Source of the DNA: an uncultured Anaerolineaceae bacterium | GTDB lineage: Bacteria > Chloroflexota > Anaerolineae > Anaerolineales > Anaerolineaceae | DNA length: 59,764 nucleotides | Assembly: GCA_937863605.1 (NCBI GenBank) | Contig: CALMGN010000034.1 | Location: 1 to 59,764 of the forward strand | Direction of reading: 5' to 3' | Shown: positions 5,907 through 53,735 of the stretch, piece after piece | How the letters are laid out: each line of letters starts with the position of its first letter | Numbering within the stretch: position 1 is the stretch's first letter | Program-made: the position numbers and the translations under genes | Notes under the pieces: generated by a model | The model's input: the letters and a program-made list of their open reading frames with translations, nothing else | Told to the model about the DNA's origin: nothing | The model's database searches: none

Positions 5907-5935
5907 TAGTTTTTTTATTGTTAATGGGGTATATT
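5907..5935 (+). promoter_or_regulatory. Weak candidate promoter of the riboswitch unit
   Basis: TATATT (5930-5935) with TAGTTT (5907-5912) 17 bases upstream. It would start transcription just before the structured leader. The -35 match is poor. The rest of 5772-5906 is AT-rich without a visible gene. Confidence 0.3.
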
Positions 5936-5954
5936 TATCCGTAGAAAATTGATT

Positions 5955-6041
5955 ATGCGTTGGCTTCGAAAAGGCGCCTCCTCAACCAGGATGCGCAAAG
6001 TCAGGCTCTGATGCAACGGTCATCCTGATTGCCGAAAAGCC
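5955..6041 (+). promoter_or_regulatory. Candidate c-di-GMP-I (GEMM)-like riboswitch
   Basis: The leader can be folded like a GEMM-I aptamer. P1 is GGCTT (5962-5966) with AAGCC (6037-6041). P2 is GGC (5973-5975) with GTC (6000-6002), capped by TCCT/AGGA. The conserved GCAAAG is at 5995-6000. P3 has arms around 6003-6011 and 6020-6026, followed by TTGCCGA (6029-6035), the conserved 3' strand of the family. The P2 loop is CAACC instead of a GNRA tetraloop and the AAA bulge is GCC, so it is at best a variant. P1 uses AAGCC, which is also part of the 5' arm of the following terminator. Ligand binding would therefore favour read-through (an ON switch). Confidence 0.5.
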
Positions 6042-6075
6042 CGTTAGATGGAATTATCCATGAACGGCTTTTTTT
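6038..6075 (+). terminator. Leader terminator (expression platform)
   Basis: AGCCCGTT (6038-6045) pairs with AACGGCT (6063-6069), with ATGG/CCAT inside, followed by a run of T (6069-6075). It lies 20 bases before the start codon of the exported protein, so it can only act as an attenuator. Its 5' arm overlaps P1 of the candidate aptamer. Confidence 0.8.
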
Positions 6076-6095
6076 ATTAAGGGAGGAATCGAATA

Positions 6096-9000
6096 GTGGA
6101 AAAAGGTTCGCAGTTTTTTACCGGTATTTTTCGGCTGATTCTGGTAGTGGGAATCCTGGTCGCCAATTTATATTCTGCCGAATCCTCGGTTCAAGCGGCA
6201 GTTGGCGCAGCCGAATTTGCAGACATTCAAAGCATTTCCACGCGTAAGTTTGGGGTGACCAACCCGGCAGGATTTGCATTCCTGCCGGGTGCCAATGGAT
6301 TCATCCTTTGGGGGGATCAGGCTGAACTGACCCAGGCTCGGATGATTAAAAATTACGAGCTGCCCGGTGGTACCGTGAATTTGCCAGGTGTTGAAGGCAG
6401 TTTGAACGCAGCTTTCGATGCGCGCAGCGGCAGCCTTTTCTTTCTTGACAATCAATCCACTCGGCTTACCCGGGTGAAATTAAACCAAAGAGGGTACCCG
6501 GATACTGCTGCTGGCATGGTGGTCACCTATGATACTCGCGCATACGGTGTAAAGCAACCTGCAGGCATCTCTTTTGACGCAACCACCGGGAGACTCTTTG
6601 TCCTGGATGCGAATGGACCGCGGGTGGTATCGGTGACATCGGGCGCCAATCAGAACTTCGACGGGACCACCGCTTTCCGAGGCGGGCGGATCAAACGGGT
6701 GAACTTGAAAGGAATGGACGGTTCGACCCTGAGCGGGATTGCATTTAACCAGCAAAACGGGCATCTCTATACGGCAGCACCGGCTGAGCAAAAAGTGTAT
6801 GAATTTACTCAGGAAGGTGAGGTGGTAGCCTCGCTGGATTTGACTAATTATGCGCTGACGAATATCCAGTCTTTGACCTTTGCCCCCAGCGCCGACCAGA
6901 CCGATGATCCCTCCTCGCAATACTTGTTTGTCCTCGACGGTGGCGAGGCATCCGCCTCAGGTGCGACGCTGAAGAGCGGTCAGATCCTGGAGTTGACCCT
7001 GCAGCCGATGGCCCTGCCGAGCGGCACGCCGCTGCTTCCCGCGACCCATGTGCGCACGATCGATACATCTAAAAATGCCTGGAATCCCTCCAGCCCCGAC
7101 CCTTCCGGAATCGATTACTTCCCACTAACCGGCCAGCTGATCATCGATGACAGCGAAGTGGACGAGATGTCGGTTTATGCCGGCGCCAATGTCTATTTTT
7201 CGACACTGTCCGGCTCACTGGTAAGCACCTGTAACACCCTGGCTTTTTCGCGTGAGCCAACCGGGATCGCAGTCAATCCCGCCAACAATCATATTTTTAT
7301 GACGGATGATGACCGTAAAGAGATTTATGAAATCAACCTCGGCATAGACGGCGTTTACTGTACAGCGGATGATTCGGTGACCAAAGTCAGCACCGTGACC
7401 CTGTTCGGCGGCACCGGCAGCGACCCCGAGGATCTGGCTTACGGTAATAACACCCTGTTCATGTCCGGCGGATCCGATGCAGAAGTGTACATGTTCAGCC
7501 TGGGAGCCAACGGAGTGCTGGGCGGCGGCGATGACGGTCCGGTCTTGCATTTCGACACCCTGGCGCTTGGCTTCAAGGATTTAGAAGGGATCGGTTACTA
7601 CCCCGAAGCCGGGACACTGTTCATTGTCAGTACCAGCAGCAGCGACCAATATATTGGTGAAGTCACCACCGATGGCACATTGCTTCGCGCTTACGACGTA
7701 AGCTTTATGGGCAGCGCGCAGAATATCCGCTCGGATGTGGGCTACCTGCCGAGCCTGGCGAACCCGAGTATCAAGAATATCTACATTGCCAGCCGCGGCA
7801 TTGACAATGACAGTGGTACAAACCCGAGTCCGACGGAAAATGATGGCAAGGTGTGGGAAATTTCGATTAACCTGCCCCCGCCCGCCACCCCGACCAACAC
7901 CCCGCTGCCCACGGCGACCAGCACCTTAGGACCGAGTCCGACTGTCACCAACACCCCAACCGCTACCGCCACTGCCACTAGCGGACCATCGCCCACACCA
8001 ACGGACACCCCGACCGCCACCAGCACCTTTACCGCAACGGCGACTCCAACCGCTACGCCGGCTCCGTCCAGCAATCCGCTTTACCTGTCGATGGCATCCA
8101 ATGGAAGTGTAGGTGGGGTCTCGTTCTCGGATGAGGACATCCTGCGCTTTGACGGGCAAACCTGGAGTTTGTATTTTGACGGCTCAGATGTGGGAGTGGG
8201 CAGCCAGGATCTCTTTGCCTTTGACATCATCGACGCAAGCACAATCTGGATGGTGTTCACCGGTTCGGTGACCCTCAACGGGATTGCAGTCACCGCTCGG
8301 GATGTGGTTCAGTTCAACGCCGCCTCGCTTGGCAGCGCCACAACGGGTACCTTCAGTATGGTACTCAACGGCGCGGATGTAGGCCTGGATGCCAACAGTG
8401 AATCGATCGATGCGGTGGATCGGTTACCTGATGGGCGCGTGCTCGTTTCGACCACCGGATCAGCCTCAGTGCCGGGCGTGACCTCAGCGGATGAAGACAT
8501 CCTGGCCTTTACACCGGTCACGCTCGGGGATACTACCAGCGGCAGTTGGGCCTTGTACTTTGACGGATCCGATGTCGGCCTGGCCGACAACAGCAATGAG
8601 GATGTCGATGCGCTGGATGTGGATGCTGATGGCAATATCTACCTCTCGACCCTGGGCGACTTCGCGGTGACCGGTGTAGCCGGCACTGATGATGATATTT
8701 TTGTCTGCGTGCCCGGGTCCACAGGCAGTACAACCACCTGTACGTACTCGTCAACGCTATTTTTTGATGGCAGTACCTGGGGTCAGACCGCCAATGATGT
8801 GGACGCCGTCAATCTGCTGGAGCTTGGGCCAATTCCAACCGCAACACCCACCAGTACACCCACCCAGACTTTGACCCCGACCAACACCGCCACGCCGACT
8901 AACACGCTGGCGCCGTCTGATACCCCGACCCCCACACCTCCCCCAACCGACACAGCTACACCCACCCTTGGCCCATCGCCAACCTTCACATCCACCGCAA

Positions 9001-9860
9001 CCGCAACGATTACCCCCCTCCCGCCCACCAGTACCTTTACCCCGACGGCTACTCTGCCACCAACCAGCACTTTTACGCCCACCGCAACCTCTGCTGCCCC
9101 AAACGGCCAGATCTACATCTCGCTTGACGGAGGCGGCACGGTCGGCGGGGTGATTGCAGAGGATGTCGACGTCCTGCATTTTGATGGTTCCTCCTGGTCC
9201 CTATTCTTCGACGCCTCGGATGTCGGTATTTCGACCAGCGGGCAGGATATGAATGATTTCGTCATACTGGATTCAACCACGCTGTTGATGACCTTCCGCT
9301 CAGCCTTTACACTGGGGGGGCTGGCGGTAGAGCCGTATGACATTGTTGAATTTACGGCAACATCGTTTGGCAGCGACACCGCCGGGACATTCAGCCTGTA
9401 CTTTGACGGCAGTGATGTTGGGTTGGACACCACCAGCGAGGTCATCGACGCGCTCGATGTTTTACCAGATGGCCGGATTTTAATCTCTACCACGGGAGAC
9501 CCAGTCGTGCCGGGTGTGGGCGGTCAAGATGAAGATGTTTTGGCCTTCACGCCGGTCACGCTTGGCGACGTCACCAGCGGCACCTGGGCGCTGTACTTTG
9601 ATGGTACGGCGGTGGGATTAGGAGACACTTCCAGTGAAGACGTCGACGGTCTGGACGTAACGCCTAATGGCGATATCTACCTGTCAACCCTGGTAGATTT
9701 CACGGTAACCGGGATTTCTGGCTTGAACGAAGACGTGTTTGTCTGCCCCCCGAGTTCGCTCGGCGATGCTACCGTCTGCACCTTTGCCCCGACCCTGTAC
9801 TTCGACGGCAGCTTCTGGGGGCTGGATGCCAACGATGTGGACGGGATTTTTATTCCATAA
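6096..9860 (+). CDS. Large exported beta-propeller protein with Pro/Thr linkers
   Basis: 1254 residues, GTG start with GGGAGG at 6081-6086. An N-terminal hydrophobic segment (about 9-33) looks like a signal peptide. Residues about 40-590 have repeated SGIAFNQQNGHLY-type strands with Asp-rich loops, typical of NHL/SdiA-regulated propellers. Two Pro/Thr linkers (about 592-660 and 910-1005) separate two copies of a roughly 245-residue module (about 665-910 and 1008-1254). The module contains repeats such as DEDILRFDG, WSLYFDGSDVG and EDVDALDV. No catalytic site or sorting motif is evident. It is probably a secreted or surface protein, controlled by the structured leader just upstream. Its exact function is unknown. 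Confidence 0.85.
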   Translation: MEKGSQFFTGIFRLILVVGILVANLYSAESSVQAAVGAAEFADIQSISTRKFGVTNPAGFAFLPGANGFILWGDQAELTQARMIKNYELPGGTVNLPGVEGSLNAAFDARSGSLFFLDNQSTRLTRVKLNQRGYPDTAAGMVVTYDTRAYGVKQPAGISFDATTGRLFVLDANGPRVVSVTSGANQNFDGTTAFRGGRIKRVNLKGMDGSTLSGIAFNQQNGHLYTAAPAEQKVYEFTQEGEVVASLDLTNYALTNIQSLTFAPSADQTDDPSSQYLFVLDGGEASASGATLKSGQILELTLQPMALPSGTPLLPATHVRTIDTSKNAWNPSSPDPSGIDYFPLTGQLIIDDSEVDEMSVYAGANVYFSTLSGSLVSTCNTLAFSREPTGIAVNPANNHIFMTDDDRKEIYEINLGIDGVYCTADDSVTKVSTVTLFGGTGSDPEDLAYGNNTLFMSGGSDAEVYMFSLGANGVLGGGDDGPVLHFDTLALGFKDLEGIGYYPEAGTLFIVSTSSSDQYIGEVTTDGTLLRAYDVSFMGSAQNIRSDVGYLPSLANPSIKNIYIASRGIDNDSGTNPSPTENDGKVWEISINLPPPATPTNTPLPTATSTLGPSPTVTNTPTATATATSGPSPTPTDTPTATSTFTATATPTATPAPSSNPLYLSMASNGSVGGVSFSDEDILRFDGQTWSLYFDGSDVGVGSQDLFAFDIIDASTIWMVFTGSVTLNGIAVTARDVVQFNAASLGSATTGTFSMVLNGADVGLDANSESIDAVDRLPDGRVLVSTTGSASVPGVTSADEDILAFTPVTLGDTTSGSWALYFDGSDVGLADNSNEDVDALDVDADGNIYLSTLGDFAVTGVAGTDDDIFVCVPGSTGSTTTCTYSSTLFFDGSTWGQTANDVDAVNLLELGPIPTATPTSTPTQTLTPTNTATPTNTLAPSDTPTPTPPPTDTATPTLGPSPTFTSTATATITPLPPTSTFTPTATLPPTSTFTPTATSAAPNGQIYISLDGGGTVGGVIAEDVDVLHFDGSSWSLFFDASDVGISTSGQDMNDFVILDSTTLLMTFRSAFTLGGLAVEPYDIVEFTATSFGSDTAGTFSLYFDGSDVGLDTTSEVIDALDVLPDGRILISTTGDPVVPGVGGQDEDVLAFTPVTLGDVTSGTWALYFDGTAVGLGDTSSEDVDGLDVTPNGDIYLSTLVDFTVTGISGLNEDVFVCPPSSLGDATVCTFAPTLYFDGSFWGLDANDVDGIFIP

Positions 9861-12126: not shown

Positions 12127-13455
12127 TCAACGTTGTACTGTAAACAAACGCCATTCACCAGGAATACCCTTAAGACGAAAATCGCCTCGATCACTAAACT
12201 CAAAACCTGAGCCAACCACCAAATCTTTTACCGTGCGTGAGACCCAAACTTCATTCGCCTGTGCTTGCGCTAAAACTCGTGCGGAAATATGCACAGCTAG
12301 CCCGCCAATCCGCTCTTCCATAAGTTCAATCTCTCCGGTATGCAGTCCTGCCCGAATCTCAAGTCCCATTCGTCGGGATTCGTCGCTGAGCGCTAAGGCA
12401 CATCGAATGGCGCGGCCTGGGCCATCAAAGGTCGCCAAGCAGCCATCACCTGTGCTTTCCACGAAGCGGCCTCTGAAACGGTCGATTTCTACGGATAACG
12501 TGGCATGGTGATCGCCTATCAAGTCACGCCAACGGTGGTCACCAATTTCTGCCACCCGCTTGGTTGAGTCCACAATGTCTGTAAAAAGCACCGTTGCCAA
12601 TACCCGATTAGGTTCTACCGTTAGTCGCTTCCCGGTCAGGAATTCTCCAATCTCATTGGCTATCGATTCCGTATCGCCAACCCACCAAGCGTGATCTTCT
12701 CCAGCCAGTTCCACTAATTTTGCCCCAGGGATATGTTCAGCCAGGTATCGCCCTTGCTCAATTTCTATCGCCAAATCATTGGTGCGATGCAAGACGAGTG
12801 TCGGAATATGTATGGTCGGCAAGATGGCGCTGACATCGATTTGTGAATACAACCGAAGCAGATTGATCACTGTGGTCGGTCCGGCACTAAGTCGTAAGAA
12901 TTTCGCCCACCATCGGCGAAAGCGCTCGTCGTGGGCAACCGAAGGCGCCATGTATTCAATATTAATCGGACCGCCCCATCCGTTCCGCCATACATTATCC
13001 CTTTCCTGATCTTGTTCGTGCGTCATTGCCCCGCTTAGGTCATCCACGAGCCTGCCTTTGGCAATGGTGCCATACAGCACTAAGGCGGAGGAGCGCTCTG
13101 GGTAGGTAGCAGCGAACAATATGCTCATGGAACCACCCTCCGAAACGCCAAACAACGCCGCCCGCGTAGAGCCGACTGCGTCCATCACAGCTCGCATATC
13201 ATCCATCCGCTGTTCCAACGTCGGAATGCCTGTGATCCGGTCGGAGAGTCCTGTGCCACGTTTGTCAAATAAAATCAGCCTGGAAAATGAAGCCAGTTGT
13301 TGAAGAAAACGAGCGTAGGCAGGATCCTCCCATGCATATTCTACATGGGATACAAAGCCTGGAACCATCACAAGGTCAATTGGACCCTGCCCCAGGACTT
13401 GATAGGCGATACTGGCATCACCGCTTAACGCAAACTTGGTTTCCGGTGGGATCAT
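12127..13455 (-). CDS. Alpha/beta-hydrolase fused to class III nucleotide cyclase domain
   Basis: 442 residues from the ATG at 13455, which has AGAAGGA in front; an in-frame TTG at 13473 is less likely. Residues about 10-275 are an alpha/beta-hydrolase with elbow GVSEG (Ser105), acid Asp227 in RTNDLA and His255 in GEDHAWW. Residues about 285-440 are an adenylate/guanylate cyclase catalytic domain: FTDIVDS (Asp293) and STGDG (Asp337) give both metal ligands, followed by GLHTGE. The usual Asn of the ribose-binding motif is His389 (AVHISARV), Arg393 is kept, and the purine-specifying Lys position is Glu333, so activity or substrate may differ. It would act in the cytoplasm. It lies between two comM relics, which suggests acquisition. 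Confidence 0.88.
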   Translation of the reverse strand: MIPPETKFALSGDASIAYQVLGQGPIDLVMVPGFVSHVEYAWEDPAYARFLQQLASFSRLILFDKRGTGLSDRITGIPTLEQRMDDMRAVMDAVGSTRAALFGVSEGGSMSILFAATYPERSSALVLYGTIAKGRLVDDLSGAMTHEQDQERDNVWRNGWGGPINIEYMAPSVAHDERFRRWWAKFLRLSAGPTTVINLLRLYSQIDVSAILPTIHIPTLVLHRTNDLAIEIEQGRYLAEHIPGAKLVELAGEDHAWWVGDTESIANEIGEFLTGKRLTVEPNRVLATVLFTDIVDSTKRVAEIGDHRWRDLIGDHHATLSVEIDRFRGRFVESTGDGCLATFDGPGRAIRCALALSDESRRMGLEIRAGLHTGEIELMEERIGGLAVHISARVLAQAQANEVWVSRTVKDLVVGSGFEFSDRGDFRLKGIPGEWRLFTVQR

Positions 13456-13622
13456 CCATTCTTCCTTCTGCAAGATCGAAAAGAGAACTGCCCCCTAATT
13501 ATGATTCAATAATAATGTATATCTTAAGTGCAGTATATAATCAATTTCCCCCAATGGCAATAATCCTCTATCTATCTACCATACTTATGCGATGGATATA
13601 ACCACTTCCTGGTACTCTCAAA

Positions 13623-39816: not shown

Positions 39817-39859
39817 ATATTAAAAGCCGGTTTTTCTAACCCCTTATTTAGGAGTGCGA

Positions 39860-42800
39860 ATGTTTCGACCTGTTTCACCTAAATTCAACGTAACATTGGT
39901 AGAAGAGGCAGTTCAGCGGTATTGGAAATCGCATGATGTCTTCCATAAGACCATGGATCAGCGCATTGGCGGACCTGAATATGTATTTTATGAAGGACCT
40001 CCGACCGCTAATGGTAAACCCGGCGTGCATCACGTCCTGGCGCGGGTCTTCAAGGATATCTTCCCGCGCTACAAGACCATGCAGGGCTTCCACGTTAGCC
40101 GCCGCGGCGGGTGGGATACTCATGGGCTGCCGGTCGAGATCGAGGTCGAGAAAAAGTTGGGATTTAAAGTTAAACAGGACATTGACGCATACGGCATCGA
40201 TAAATTCAACGCGCTGTGCCGTGAGTCGGCATTTGCCTATATCCAGGAGTGGGAACGTCTGACCGACCGCATCGGCTATTGGGTTGACCTGGAAACAGCC
40301 TACATCACTTTCAAAAACGAATACATCGAATCTGTCTGGTCGATCCTCAAGAACTTCTGGGAGAAAGACTTGCTCTACCAGGGGTTCAAGGTAGTTCCGT
40401 ACTGCCCGCGCTGCGGGACGCCGCTTTCGGATCATGAAGTGGCTCAAGGCTATGCAGAAACCGTCGATCCGTCAGTCTTTGTTCGCCTGCCGCTGGTGGA
40501 TGAACCCGGCACCTCGTTGTTAGTCTGGACGACGACGCCCTGGACGCTTCCTGGCAATGTTGCCGTCGCCGCTCACCCTGAAGTGGATTATGTGGTGGTC
40601 GAACATGCGCTGCCTGAAGACGGCACAGAGAAGCTGATCCTGGCGGAAGCCCTGGTGGAAAAGGTCTTCCATGGTGAAGCCGTCAAAGTGGTCAATCGGA
40701 TGAAAGGCAAAGCCCTTAAAGGTAAACGGTACCAGCCACTGTACACCTTCCTGCCGGTTCAAAAGCAAGCCTACTATGTGGTCCTGGCGGATTATGTAAC
40801 CACCGAAGATGGCACCGGTTTTGTGCATATCGCCCCGGCGTTTGGCGCCGAGGACATGGCGGTTGGGCTGGAACACGACCTGCCGCTGCTGATGACGGTA
40901 GCGGATGACGGGACCTTTATCCCGGCAGTCCGACCGTGGGCAGGCGTTTTTGTCAAAAAAGCTGATCCGTTGATCATCGATGAGCTGCATACCCGTGGGT
41001 TGCTTTTCCGCAGCGAAAACTATACCCACACCTATCCGTTTTGCTGGCGCTGCGACACCCCGCTCCTGTATTATGCCCGGCCAACCTGGTACATCCGCAC
41101 CAGCCAGTTCAAAGACCGCATGGTGGAACTCAACAACACCATCAACTGGTATCCAGGCCACATCAAGAGCGGTCGATTTGGCAACTGGCTGTCCAACAAT
41201 GTGGACTGGGCGCTCGGGCGCGAACGCTATTGGGGCACGCCGCTGCCGGTCTGGGAATGCGTCGATTGCCGCCACCAGCATGCCATCGGTTCAGTGGCTG
41301 AGTTGTCAACCCTGGCGGGGCGCGACCTGACCGGGCTTGACTTGCACCGGCCGTACGTTGATGAGGTCACCCTGGGCTGCCCGGAATGCGGCGGAAAGAT
41401 GAAACGCGTCCCGGAATTGATCGATGTCTGGTTTGACTCCGGCTCGATGCCCTATGCTCAGTGGCATTACCCGTTCGAAAATGTCGAACAGTTCCACCAG
41501 CAGTACCCGGCGGATTATATCTGCGAGGCGGTTGACCAGACCCGCGGTTGGTTCTACTCGCTGCACGCCATCAGCACCCTGCTTAATGACCAGGTCAGTT
41601 TCAAGAACGTGGTCTGCCTGGGCTTAATCCAGGATGGCAACGGGCAGAAAATGTCTAAATCGCGCGGCAATGTGACTGATCCCTGGGAAGTGCTAAATGC
41701 CAATGGCGCGGACGCAATGCGCTGGTATTTGTATACAGCTGGCCCTCCAGGGCAGGAACGGCGATTCTCCAGCGAACTGGTGGGAGAAGTGCTGCGCAAC
41801 TTTACGCTTACTTTATGGAATACCTATTCCTTCTTCGTCACCTATGCCAACCTGGACGGCTGGCAGCCCGGTGATGGCCAGCAAGCTCAGTACAGCGACC
41901 TTGACCATTGGTTGCGCTCCACCTTGCATGCGTTGGTGCGCGACGTCACCACGGCGATGGAAAATTATGACGTGCTGGGCGCCACCCGCCCGATCGAGGC
42001 CTTTGTTGACCAGTTGTCCAACTGGTATCTCCGCCGCTCACGCCGCCGCTTCTGGAAGTCTGAATCGGACGGCGATAAGCAGGCAGCTTACGCTACGCTG
42101 TACGAAGCGCTGGTGACCGTCAGCAAGCTGCTGGCGCCCAGTATGCCGTTTCTGGCGGAGGAGCTCTACCAGAACCTGGTGATGCAGATGAATCCGAATG
42201 CGCCTGAATCGGTGCATCTGGCTGTTTGGCCGGCCTTCGACCCAACTCTGGTAGACGACAAACTCAACCGCGACATGGCGCTGGTGATGAAACTGGCGTC
42301 GGTTGGCCATGCTGCACGCAACAAGGCTAACCGCAAGGTGCGCCAGCCGCTGGCAGAAGCAGCCTTCTCGGTAGGCAACGCTGACGAAGCCCGGGTGGTG
42401 CAGGCCTATGCCGATCTTTTGGAAGACGAACTGAACGTCAAGCGCGTACGAGCGTTGGATACCACTGGCGAGGCGGTGGCTTACAGCCTGAATCCACTGC
42501 CCAAGCAGCTGGGTCAAAAATACGGCAGCCGTTTCCCGGCCATCCGTAAGACCCTGCTAGCAGCCGATCCCGAGCCTGCCGCGCGGCGGCTGCTCGACGG
42601 TCAACCGGTTGATCTGGAAGTGGACGGTGAAAAGGTTGCAGTCTTACCGGAAGAGGTCGAGGTGCGCGTGCAGGCGCGCGAAGGCTACGCCGTGGCGTCC
42701 GAAGGCGCTTATCTGGCGGCGCTGGTCACCGACCTGACTCCGGCGTTGGTACGTGAGGGTTTGGCGCGCGAGTTTGTGCGCCGCGTGCAGGACCTGCGCA

Positions 42801-43012
42801 AAACGGCTGATTTACAGATCTCCGACCGCATCCGGTTGTACTATCAGGCTACTCCAGGTCTGGTGGAAGCCGTCGCTGATTTCAAGGAGTACATCATGGC
42901 GGAAACCCTGACCGTTGACCTGGTCTCTTCCGCTCCGTCGGAAGCTGCAACGGTAAGCCAGGCTGAATTCGACGGCGAACAGTTGACCGTCGGGGTGGAA
43001 GTCGCCCGTTGA
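39860..43012 (+). CDS. ileS: Isoleucyl-tRNA synthetase, eukaryote-like type
   Basis: 1050 residues from ATG 39860 with GGAG in front; a GTG six bases earlier is in frame but lies inside that site. The HIGH-equivalent is GVHHVL (HHVL 57-60) after PPTANGKPG, and the second signature is KMSKS at about 596-600. WDTHGLPVEIEVEK and the CPRCG / CPECG zinc knuckles fit the large type 2 IleRS clade, which is typically mupirocin-tolerant. The editing CP1 domain (WTTTPWTLPGNVAVAAHPEV) is complete. It charges tRNA-Ile in the cytoplasm. The T-box leader controls it and a strong terminator follows. Confidence 0.97.
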   Translation: MFRPVSPKFNVTLVEEAVQRYWKSHDVFHKTMDQRIGGPEYVFYEGPPTANGKPGVHHVLARVFKDIFPRYKTMQGFHVSRRGGWDTHGLPVEIEVEKKLGFKVKQDIDAYGIDKFNALCRESAFAYIQEWERLTDRIGYWVDLETAYITFKNEYIESVWSILKNFWEKDLLYQGFKVVPYCPRCGTPLSDHEVAQGYAETVDPSVFVRLPLVDEPGTSLLVWTTTPWTLPGNVAVAAHPEVDYVVVEHALPEDGTEKLILAEALVEKVFHGEAVKVVNRMKGKALKGKRYQPLYTFLPVQKQAYYVVLADYVTTEDGTGFVHIAPAFGAEDMAVGLEHDLPLLMTVADDGTFIPAVRPWAGVFVKKADPLIIDELHTRGLLFRSENYTHTYPFCWRCDTPLLYYARPTWYIRTSQFKDRMVELNNTINWYPGHIKSGRFGNWLSNNVDWALGRERYWGTPLPVWECVDCRHQHAIGSVAELSTLAGRDLTGLDLHRPYVDEVTLGCPECGGKMKRVPELIDVWFDSGSMPYAQWHYPFENVEQFHQQYPADYICEAVDQTRGWFYSLHAISTLLNDQVSFKNVVCLGLIQDGNGQKMSKSRGNVTDPWEVLNANGADAMRWYLYTAGPPGQERRFSSELVGEVLRNFTLTLWNTYSFFVTYANLDGWQPGDGQQAQYSDLDHWLRSTLHALVRDVTTAMENYDVLGATRPIEAFVDQLSNWYLRRSRRRFWKSESDGDKQAAYATLYEALVTVSKLLAPSMPFLAEELYQNLVMQMNPNAPESVHLAVWPAFDPTLVDDKLNRDMALVMKLASVGHAARNKANRKVRQPLAEAAFSVGNADEARVVQAYADLLEDELNVKRVRALDTTGEAVAYSLNPLPKQLGQKYGSRFPAIRKTLLAADPEPAARRLLDGQPVDLEVDGEKVAVLPEEVEVRVQAREGYAVASEGAYLAALVTDLTPALVREGLAREFVRRVQDLRKTADLQISDRIRLYYQATPGLVEAVADFKEYIMAETLTVDLVSSAPSEAATVSQAEFDGEQLTVGVEVAR

Positions 43013-52142: not shown

Positions 52143-53735
52143 CTAAGCTTCAGTACCCTCAGATTCAGCCAGGGGTTGATTTTCTTCGAGCGCGCGCAGC
52201 GATGGCTCGATTTTGTTGCCCCCAAGATCCTTGGCAATATACAGCCGCTGGTCAGCCAGATCCACCAACTGGATAAAATCGAGGGTCTCGTCCACCAGAA
52301 CTGCAATCCCTTGACTGATCGTTGGCGACGGAATCAATTGGCCGACGCGGTCTTTGATGGCTAAATTTTCCAGAGTGGTACGAATTCGTTCAGCCACGCG
52401 GAAAGCCTGCGGGCCGTTGGCATGGGGGAGCGAGATCACGAATTCTTCGCCGCCCCACCGGCCAATCAGGTCGGACTTTTTGACATTACGTCGGATAACC
52501 TGGCACAGATTGGTAAGGACTTCATCGCCGGTAAGGTGGCCGAACCGGTCGTTGTACATTTTGAAGTGATCGATATCCAGCATAATGAGCGATAACGGGT
52601 TTTTCAGGCCGACTGCTTCGCGCGCCTGGCGCTCAAAGCGGGCCAGGAAAGCATTGTGGTTGAGGACACCGGTGAGGCTGTCGTGCTGCGAGCGGGTCTC
52701 AACCTCGGCATGGTGCTCTGCGTTATCAAGCGCCAGTGCGGCCTGCTGGGCGATATTCTCCAGTAATTCCAGGTCGCCTTCATCAAAAACATTCTTCTGA
52801 TACGAAGCCACCCCGATAATTCCGGCGATGTGCCCGTTGATCATGAGTGGTGTACCCATCCATGAACTGCTCATCCGCGGCCGACCGACGATGATGAACG
52901 GCAGATTCCGTTTCTTGCGTTCGGAAACCAGGTCGCGGATCAACAAAGAGTGTCGGGATTCCACCACCCTGCCCGCCAGAGTATCTTTGAGCGCGATATT
53001 CATGGTTGGGAAGAACTCGCCATCGTCGAAAAACAATTCCATCTGGAAGGTCTCGCCTTGCAGCAAACCGACATAATACGTGTCCGCGGCGAAGGCATTC
53101 TGGATGGCGCTGCTCACCAGGGTGACCACCTGGTGCATCTCGAGCGAACTGGCCAGGCTGCGGGCGACTCGATTCAGGGTTTGTAGGCGTTTCATTTCAA
53201 CCAACAGCGAATTGCGCAGCCCAAGGATGGTTTCGGTAATTACCACAGCAATGACCGGAATGAGGATTGCCTCAAGGAAGAATAATGAAGTCTGGTCCAC
53301 AGGAACCAACAAAAAGCTGAATATGTTTGAAGCCATCACGAGGAAGGTAAATAAATATGTCGGCCAACGCCCGGAGAGAACTGCCAGGATAACGATGATG
53401 GTTAAGGACAGCGGCAAGGTTGTTCCTATAATCAGCGCAGGTTCATAAACATCGATGATGCCAACGCCTACCCCGCTTGCTACCGCCAACAACCAGCCAT
53501 AATAAGGCCGGTTCCTCAGGAGCGGCACCCCCCAGATGGAAATAAAAATCATATAGAGCAAACCGGCTGCGCCAAAGATCAGGCTGGTCTTTCCTGCCTG
53601 CGTGGATGGTTTGAAAAATATGCCGTTGACAATTAATGCGAAAAATACCAGTCCGCCAACGGTGACAGCCGGAAGGACCAGATTCAGTTGTTTGGTGGTG
53701 GTCAGACTGGGGGGTTGTGACGCGTTCCGGTTCAT
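52143..53735 (-). CDS. Membrane diguanylate cyclase (TM-GAF-GGDEF)
   Basis: 530 residues. About six N-terminal helices (25-180), a GAF domain (about 195-345, LARSLEMHQVVTLVS to NIAQQAALALDNAEH) and a GGDEF domain whose active-site GGEEF lies at 428-432, in IGRWGGEEFVISLP. It should make c-di-GMP from two GTP. The product-inhibition site RxxD is KKSD here, so feedback is probably lost. The GAF domain may sense a small ligand. It is a possible source of the ligand for the GEMM-like leader at 5955, though far away in the genome. Confidence 0.93.
   Translation of the reverse strand: MNRNASQPPSLTTTKQLNLVLPAVTVGGLVFFALIVNGIFFKPSTQAGKTSLIFGAAGLLYMIFISIWGVPLLRNRPYYGWLLAVASGVGVGIIDVYEPALIIGTTLPLSLTIIVILAVLSGRWPTYLFTFLVMASNIFSFLLVPVDQTSLFFLEAILIPVIAVVITETILGLRNSLLVEMKRLQTLNRVARSLASSLEMHQVVTLVSSAIQNAFAADTYYVGLLQGETFQMELFFDDGEFFPTMNIALKDTLAGRVVESRHSLLIRDLVSERKKRNLPFIIVGRPRMSSSWMGTPLMINGHIAGIIGVASYQKNVFDEGDLELLENIAQQAALALDNAEHHAEVETRSQHDSLTGVLNHNAFLARFERQAREAVGLKNPLSLIMLDIDHFKMYNDRFGHLTGDEVLTNLCQVIRRNVKKSDLIGRWGGEEFVISLPHANGPQAFRVAERIRTTLENLAIKDRVGQLIPSPTISQGIAVLVDETLDFIQLVDLADQRLYIAKDLGGNKIEPSLRALEENQPLAESEGTEA

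Follow-up and report, generated by a model that had tools for sequence, protein, structure and literature searches.

A derived, unclamped relative of the c-di-GMP-I riboswitch precedes an exported-protein gene in an uncultured Anaerolineaceae bacterium

The 59,764-nucleotide stretch of Anaerolineaceae DNA analysed here, referred to as the window, contains a short leader for which a first-pass annotation, made from the letters alone, had proposed a c-di-GMP-I (GEMM)-like ON riboswitch. This raises the question of whether the RNA belongs to that class and, if so, how it could work with a P2 loop that departs from the classical fold. Both motifs on which the proposal was based are present in the expected order, GCAAAG at 5995-6000 and UUGCCGA at 6029-6035, and folding recovers the P1, P2 and P3 pairings as annotated. 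The motif pair has two matches in the window versus 0.22 expected, the second being a minus-strand coincidence, and the pair with its spacing is by itself weak evidence. The three-helix aptamer occupies 5962-6041 (+), with an intrinsic terminator (6035-6075) directly next to it and a Shine-Dalgarno sequence, AGGGAGG, at 6080-6086. A putative -10 element, TATATT, lies at 5930-5935 (+), where a consensus scan gave no match; TATATTTA is kept approximately 30 nt upstream of P1 in all four orthologous leaders, and transcription would start near 5942 if this element is used.

The downstream gene (6096-9860, +), which begins with a GTG at 6096, encodes a protein of 1254 residues with a signal-peptide-like N-terminus, an NHL/SdiA-regulated beta-propeller region, Thr/Pro-rich linkers and a repeat module of ~270 residues in two copies. 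Judging from these features the product is likely exported, and it is large, although the term "giant" used for it previously was an overstatement. Its orthologues in G001, G003 and G004 carry the same leader. No such leader was found at the distant homologues L041-L044 and L106-L108, and L041, L107 and L108 adjoin another gene directly upstream; since the homologues outside the genus lack the leader, control by this RNA looks genus-specific in the sample examined. In G003 and G004, the gene led by the riboswitch is followed directly by a second gene for a related protein (L043 and L044; 44-45% identical), and no such second gene was found in the genome of the window.

Searched against Rfam at gathering thresholds, the whole window returned no c-di-GMP match and only a T-box leader (RF00230; 39536-39800, +, 111.4 bits), directly after which lies the gene for an aminoacyl-tRNA synthetase of class I (I/L/M/V; 39854-43012). 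GEMM was also absent at E ≤ 10 when 701 bases were searched, and an exact pattern search of 61 relatives matched only the window itself. When the 121-base slice was searched, RF01051 was the top family, but its score of 14.9 bits (E 0.6) falls 20 bits short of the gathering cut-off of 35 bits. The orthologous leader L010 scored 35.1 bits against RF01051, above that cut-off.

A covariance model, R1, was built from 13 c-di-GMP-I RNAs that occur in the order, lack the receptor and have well-supported helices; the window leader and the orthologous leaders L008-L010 were excluded. This held-out model matched the window at 25.6 bits with filters off (E 1.4e-5; covariance-model E-values here are rough, the calibration having been short), and the next match reached 10.9 bits. 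The orthologous leaders scored 50.3 bits (L010; E 3e-13), 32.0 bits (L009) and 29.4 bits (L008). Across its own whole genome the window leader (E 6.3e-4) ranked second to a classical GEMM-I RNA on contig C165. L008 and L009 were missed by the first-pass filter in the R1 genome search, so absence of matches in other genomes is weak evidence. The reverse test used a model, R2, made from the window leader, L008 and L009 only, and its matches included RNAs of other genera, scoring up to 38.2 bits (E 1.8e-6). Seven of the RNAs found with R2 scored 54.6-68.4 bits against c-di-GMP-I-GGC, six of them above gathering; most R2-found RNAs share the P1/terminator layout of the window and most precede exported-looking protein genes. 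Further R2 matches (L144, L145, L151 and L153-L155) lack the GEMM core and were taken as chance. The GEMM match that the first-pass annotation had named as a check was thus obtained, through the score of L010 and through a held-out GEMM-I model that is significant for the window, and the Rfam cut-off misses real c-di-GMP-I relatives within this group.

The orthologous leader stands before the orthologous gene in three other species of the genus (G001, G003 and G004), with identities to the window leader of 84% (L008), 81% (L009) and 69% (L010, from G001). Covariance support, which had been named as a condition for the proposal to stand, was found among the window, L008 and L009, a small sample of three closely related sequences: four base pairs change on both sides with pairing retained, two in P2, one in P3 and one in the terminator, compared with 0-1 in slid controls whose partners were moved by 1-3 positions. 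Paired cells amount to 89% in these three leaders versus 36-52% in the slid controls; pair counts were taken with a hand-placed gap, as the MAFFT gap in the window P2 was misplaced. Covariation supports P2 and P3b. P1 is invariant in the three sequences, and its support therefore comes from homology and from other GEMM-I RNAs. The aptamer has 15 variable columns, all of them outside the 32-column core (P ~2e-4), and two helix mismatches, C5978-U5992 and U6007-U6020, are unique to the window. The leader is homologous to c-di-GMP-I, and conservation of pocket and platform, covariation and loss of the clamp are demonstrated. On this comparative footing we regard it as an evolutionarily maintained relative of the c-di-GMP-I riboswitch.

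Positions of the aptamer (all on the plus strand) are related below to Vc2 numbering, which was mapped onto the Vc2 sequence and cross-checked with PMC3764141 and PMC4744006. The 5' strand of P1, GGCUUCG (5962-5968), was placed by constrained and nascent folds and is the same in all four leaders; its G5968 pairs with C6033, the equivalent of G14-C93. J1/2, AAAAG (5969-5973), ends in G5973, which model alignments equate with the ligand contact G20. P2 (5974-5996) pairs 5974-5982 with 5988-5996 around the loop CAACC (5983-5987), contains the mismatch C5978-U5992 and holds the equivalents of G21-C46 and C22-G45. J2/3, AAA (5997-5999), supplies A47 as A5997, followed by A48 and A49, according to the model alignment and the survey described below. 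A47 stacks between the ligand bases. P3 (6000-6029) consists of P3a (6000-6005/6024-6029) and P3b (6008-6010/6017-6019) and is closed by the loop AUGCAA (6011-6016), with U6023 at the GEMM-I G83 position and no tetraloop receptor. J3/1, UGC, starts at 6030 and contains C6032, equivalent to C92 in model alignments and folds, and the 3' strand of P1 (6033-6041) follows with A6035-A6036 bulged as the equivalent of A95.

The survey covered 73 distinct matches, drawn from the genome that contains the window and from its relatives in the order. In the survey alignment the window leader keeps the whole pocket, namely G20 (5973), G21, C22, G45, C46, A47-A49 and C92 (6032), so that G20, A47 and C92 occur together with C22-G45 and the J2/3 AAA; G20, A47 and C92 are known ligand-contact positions (PMC4744006, PMC3764141). 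The elements that hold P2 and P3 together are lost: neither the window nor its two sister species (L008 and L009) have the GNRA/GYRA loop, its receptor, G83 or the internal loop of A23-A25, and the window also lacks the conserved G32, A35 and G42. Positions A23, A25, G32, A35, G42, C44 and G83 are among the highly conserved ones, with P2 and P3 packed in parallel through C44-G83 (PMC3764141), and this pair has been described as universally conserved in GEMM riboswitches (PMC4744006). Both of its nucleotides are kept in 61 of the 73 survey matches. In the window C44 is present but is now Watson-Crick paired with G23, and position 83 is U in all three leaders, so the interhelical C44-G83 pair is not available. 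At the internal-loop site (A23-A25/G42-C44) the sequence is GCC/UGC in the window and GUA/UGC and GUA/UAC in the sisters, so that two or three standard pairs replace the loop, which among the 73 matches is seen in these three leaders only; in the window, the additional Watson-Crick pairs G5976-C5994 and C5977-G5993 occupy the site of the unpaired AAA/GAC internal loop of GEMM-I.

The leader therefore does not fit either described type. Type 1 docks a GNRA tetraloop in an 11-nt receptor, and here the loop is CAACC and the receptor is absent; for type 2 the absence of the receptor is expected, yet the loop is not GYRA. The earlier observation that the P2 loop is CAACC and not GNRA is correct, and its corollary, that docking must differ from the classical fold, holds more widely than had been noted, since the receptor is gone as well, together with the C44-G83 pair and the internal loop of A23-A25. 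Receptor-less type-2 GEMM RNAs with a GYRA loop have already been described (PMC11218506), so loss of the receptor alone is not new. What is new is that the interhelical pair and the internal loop are lost together, and from its sequence we file the leader as a derived, unclamped c-di-GMP-I variant rather than a standard member. Separately, the survey showed tandem c-di-GMP-I copies within ~200 bases in several genomes of the order (L067, L054, L129-L138 and others), some of them degenerate at position 44, 83 or 92. One such copy, listed both as L134 (G020:C151:89820-90000) and as L071 (1381-1453), which are the same RNA, has A44 and U83, possibly a compensatory swap of the interhelical C44-G83 pair.

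The terminator (6035-6075; 5' arm 6035-6045, U7 tail 6069-6075) has a predicted stability of -13.8 kcal/mol (z -4.1), and none of 200 shuffles was as good; its bulges keep it from being recognised by a simple consensus scan. All four leaders retain this terminator, one pair of which has changed on both sides. As annotated, its 5' arm shares a strand with P1, since AAAAGCC (6035-6041) contains AAGCC (6037-6041), and because AAGCC belongs to both the P1 3' strand and the terminator arm the two structures are mutually exclusive, as had been claimed and as the folds also indicate. All four leaders show this overlap, as do further GEMM-I RNAs from the order. For each of the four leaders, calculated energies favour the terminator state over the aptamer state by 5.9-7.2 kcal/mol, and in the nascent RNA, before the second strand of the terminator has been made, P1 has a predicted probability of 0.84-0.98. 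The modelled layout is thus bistable, with the terminator more stable and P1 forming in the nascent RNA. An aptamer helix mutually exclusive with an intrinsic terminator is the layout of an ON switch, and the overlap and folds show that layout. In its full-length minimum free energy structure the window leader also shows a non-aptamer pairing that is not seen in the sister species, which counts against the proposed switch.

We favour, with a probability of roughly 0.7, a derived relative of the type-2 c-di-GMP-I riboswitch that acts as a transcriptional ON switch. The ligand, the direction of control and the affinity are what we infer from these features. Since nascent RNA forms P1 before the terminator is complete, a ligand that stabilises P1 would prevent termination. 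c-di-GMP would sit in the junction of G20, A47 and C92 and stabilise P1, which would sequester AAGCC, the starting strand of the terminator, and RNA polymerase would continue into the gene for the exported protein with its beta-propeller region; in the absence of ligand the terminator, being more stable, would prevail. ON control by c-di-GMP is likely from the sequence, and c-di-GMP is suggested as the ligand because G20, A47 and C92 are in place and the genome encodes five GGDEF domains over the cut-off. One of these lies inside the window. A search of the genome for EAL phosphodiesterase domains found none, which counts against the proposal. The cyclase previously pointed out in the same window (52143-53735, -) is indeed a membrane protein of the GAF-GGDEF type; its GGEEF motif is intact, and the usual RxxD inhibitory site cannot be made out five residues before it. 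As evidence, however, its nearness means little, as it is 46 kb distant and one of five in the genome. The window also encodes (12127-13473, -) a fusion of an alpha/beta hydrolase with an adenylate/guanylate cyclase domain of class III.

How well such an RNA would bind is a separate matter. In Cd1 the A24-26U mutant showed no binding, an effect that the study ascribes to losing the tetraloop contact (PMC9262584). By this precedent, binding by the window leader may be poor or absent; we expect it to be weaker or faster than usual, or else to involve a replacement contact that we do not recognise. By analogy, then, affinity for c-di-GMP is expected to be weak or altered, and dismantling of the P2-P3 clamp in the window and two sister species would probably give lower affinity or faster kinetics than usual. 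We tentatively consider an aptamer that functions with an intact pocket and without any of the known P2-P3 clamps; either its arms would meet in a new contact, or it would be a weak and fast sensor tuned to high c-di-GMP.

The same changes could be read differently. A GEMM-I descendant might have altered its ligand or its docking, through a new P2/P3 contact or acceptance of another cyclic dinucleotide. P2 and P3 appear to have been rebuilt jointly rather than eroded: the new P2 pairs covary (C-G, U-G and U-A at 5977/5993), at least two pairs replace the 23-25/42-44 internal loop only in these 3 of 73 matches, and the P3 loop AUGCAA is the same in the window, L008 and L009. We nonetheless consider this unlikely, as the selectivity positions G20, A47 and C92 are of the c-di-GMP type, complementarity between the P2 and P3 loops is not consistent by eye, and a shared 6-nt loop is unremarkable among sequences more than 80% identical. 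A P2-P3 kissing loop, likewise judged by eye, was set aside because its pairing is inconsistent between species.

A riboswitch in the process of losing function, with a non-binding aptamer and a leader that serves as a constitutive terminator or attenuator or is drifting, would account for the missing conserved tertiary elements, for the two mismatches found in the window only (C5978-U5992 and U6007-U6020) and for the low RF01051 score of 14.9 bits. Drift would not spare the pocket, however, which is invariant in three species while the stems around it change, and the stem substitutions retain pairing; we judge this reading quite improbable. That the leader is an unrelated terminator with chance GEMM-like motifs agrees with the lack of a c-di-GMP match in the Rfam window search at gathering and with the weakness of motif spacing by itself, but it is hardly credible after the success of the held-out and reciprocal covariance searches, and the RF01051 score of L010 together with the held-out R1 matches effectively refutes it.

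Compared with known systems, the derived c-di-GMP-I relative favoured here shares with type 1 RF01051 RNAs such as Vibrio cholerae Vc2 the order of P1, P2 and P3, the GGC...GCAAAG...UGCCGA core, G20, A47-A49, C92, C22-G45, G14-C93, the bulged A95 and a P1 that competes with a terminator, whereas it is without the GNRA tetraloop, the receptor and C44-G83, and Watson-Crick pairs replace the AAA/GAC loop of P2. With type 2 (PMC11218506), represented in the order by L001, L076-L083 and L143-L149 (L144 and L145 lacking the GEMM core), it shares the absent receptor, the short P3 and the flanking P1/terminator layout, and L143 even has the same P1, GGCUU/AAGCC; type 2 retains a GNRA/GYRA-like loop, the AAA internal loop and C44-G83, and the window type retains none of these. 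One classical receptor-less c-di-GMP-I RNA, L001 (C165:5876-5953, 58 bits), occurs in the window's own genome, where it precedes an exported-protein gene whose product looks by sequence like a subtilisin-type protease, an arrangement also seen in relatives (L072, L076, L077 and L085). c-di-GMP-I-GGC (RF03167) belongs to the same clan and also has no receptor, but its consensus is CGCGAA (G47) as opposed to CGCAAA (A47) in the window, and it gave no match to the window slice at E ≤ 10. The receptor-less c-di-GMP-I RNAs L143, L146-L150 and L152 carry A47 (CGCAAAG or CGTAAAG) and score best against RF03167, mostly above gathering, despite its consensus G at this position; ordinary type-2 RNAs may be among those captured by this family. 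The closest comparison is L010, which shares with the window the downstream gene, P1, the core and the terminator design and is intermediate in its arms: it keeps A23-A24, C44 and G83, its P2 loop is not a tetraloop, and the tetraloop receptor is absent. Before the same gene in one genus there is thus a series from L010, with C44-G83 kept, to the window, with the pair lost and the site rebuilt, which offers a ready test of whether packing of the arms is required for binding or only tunes affinity.
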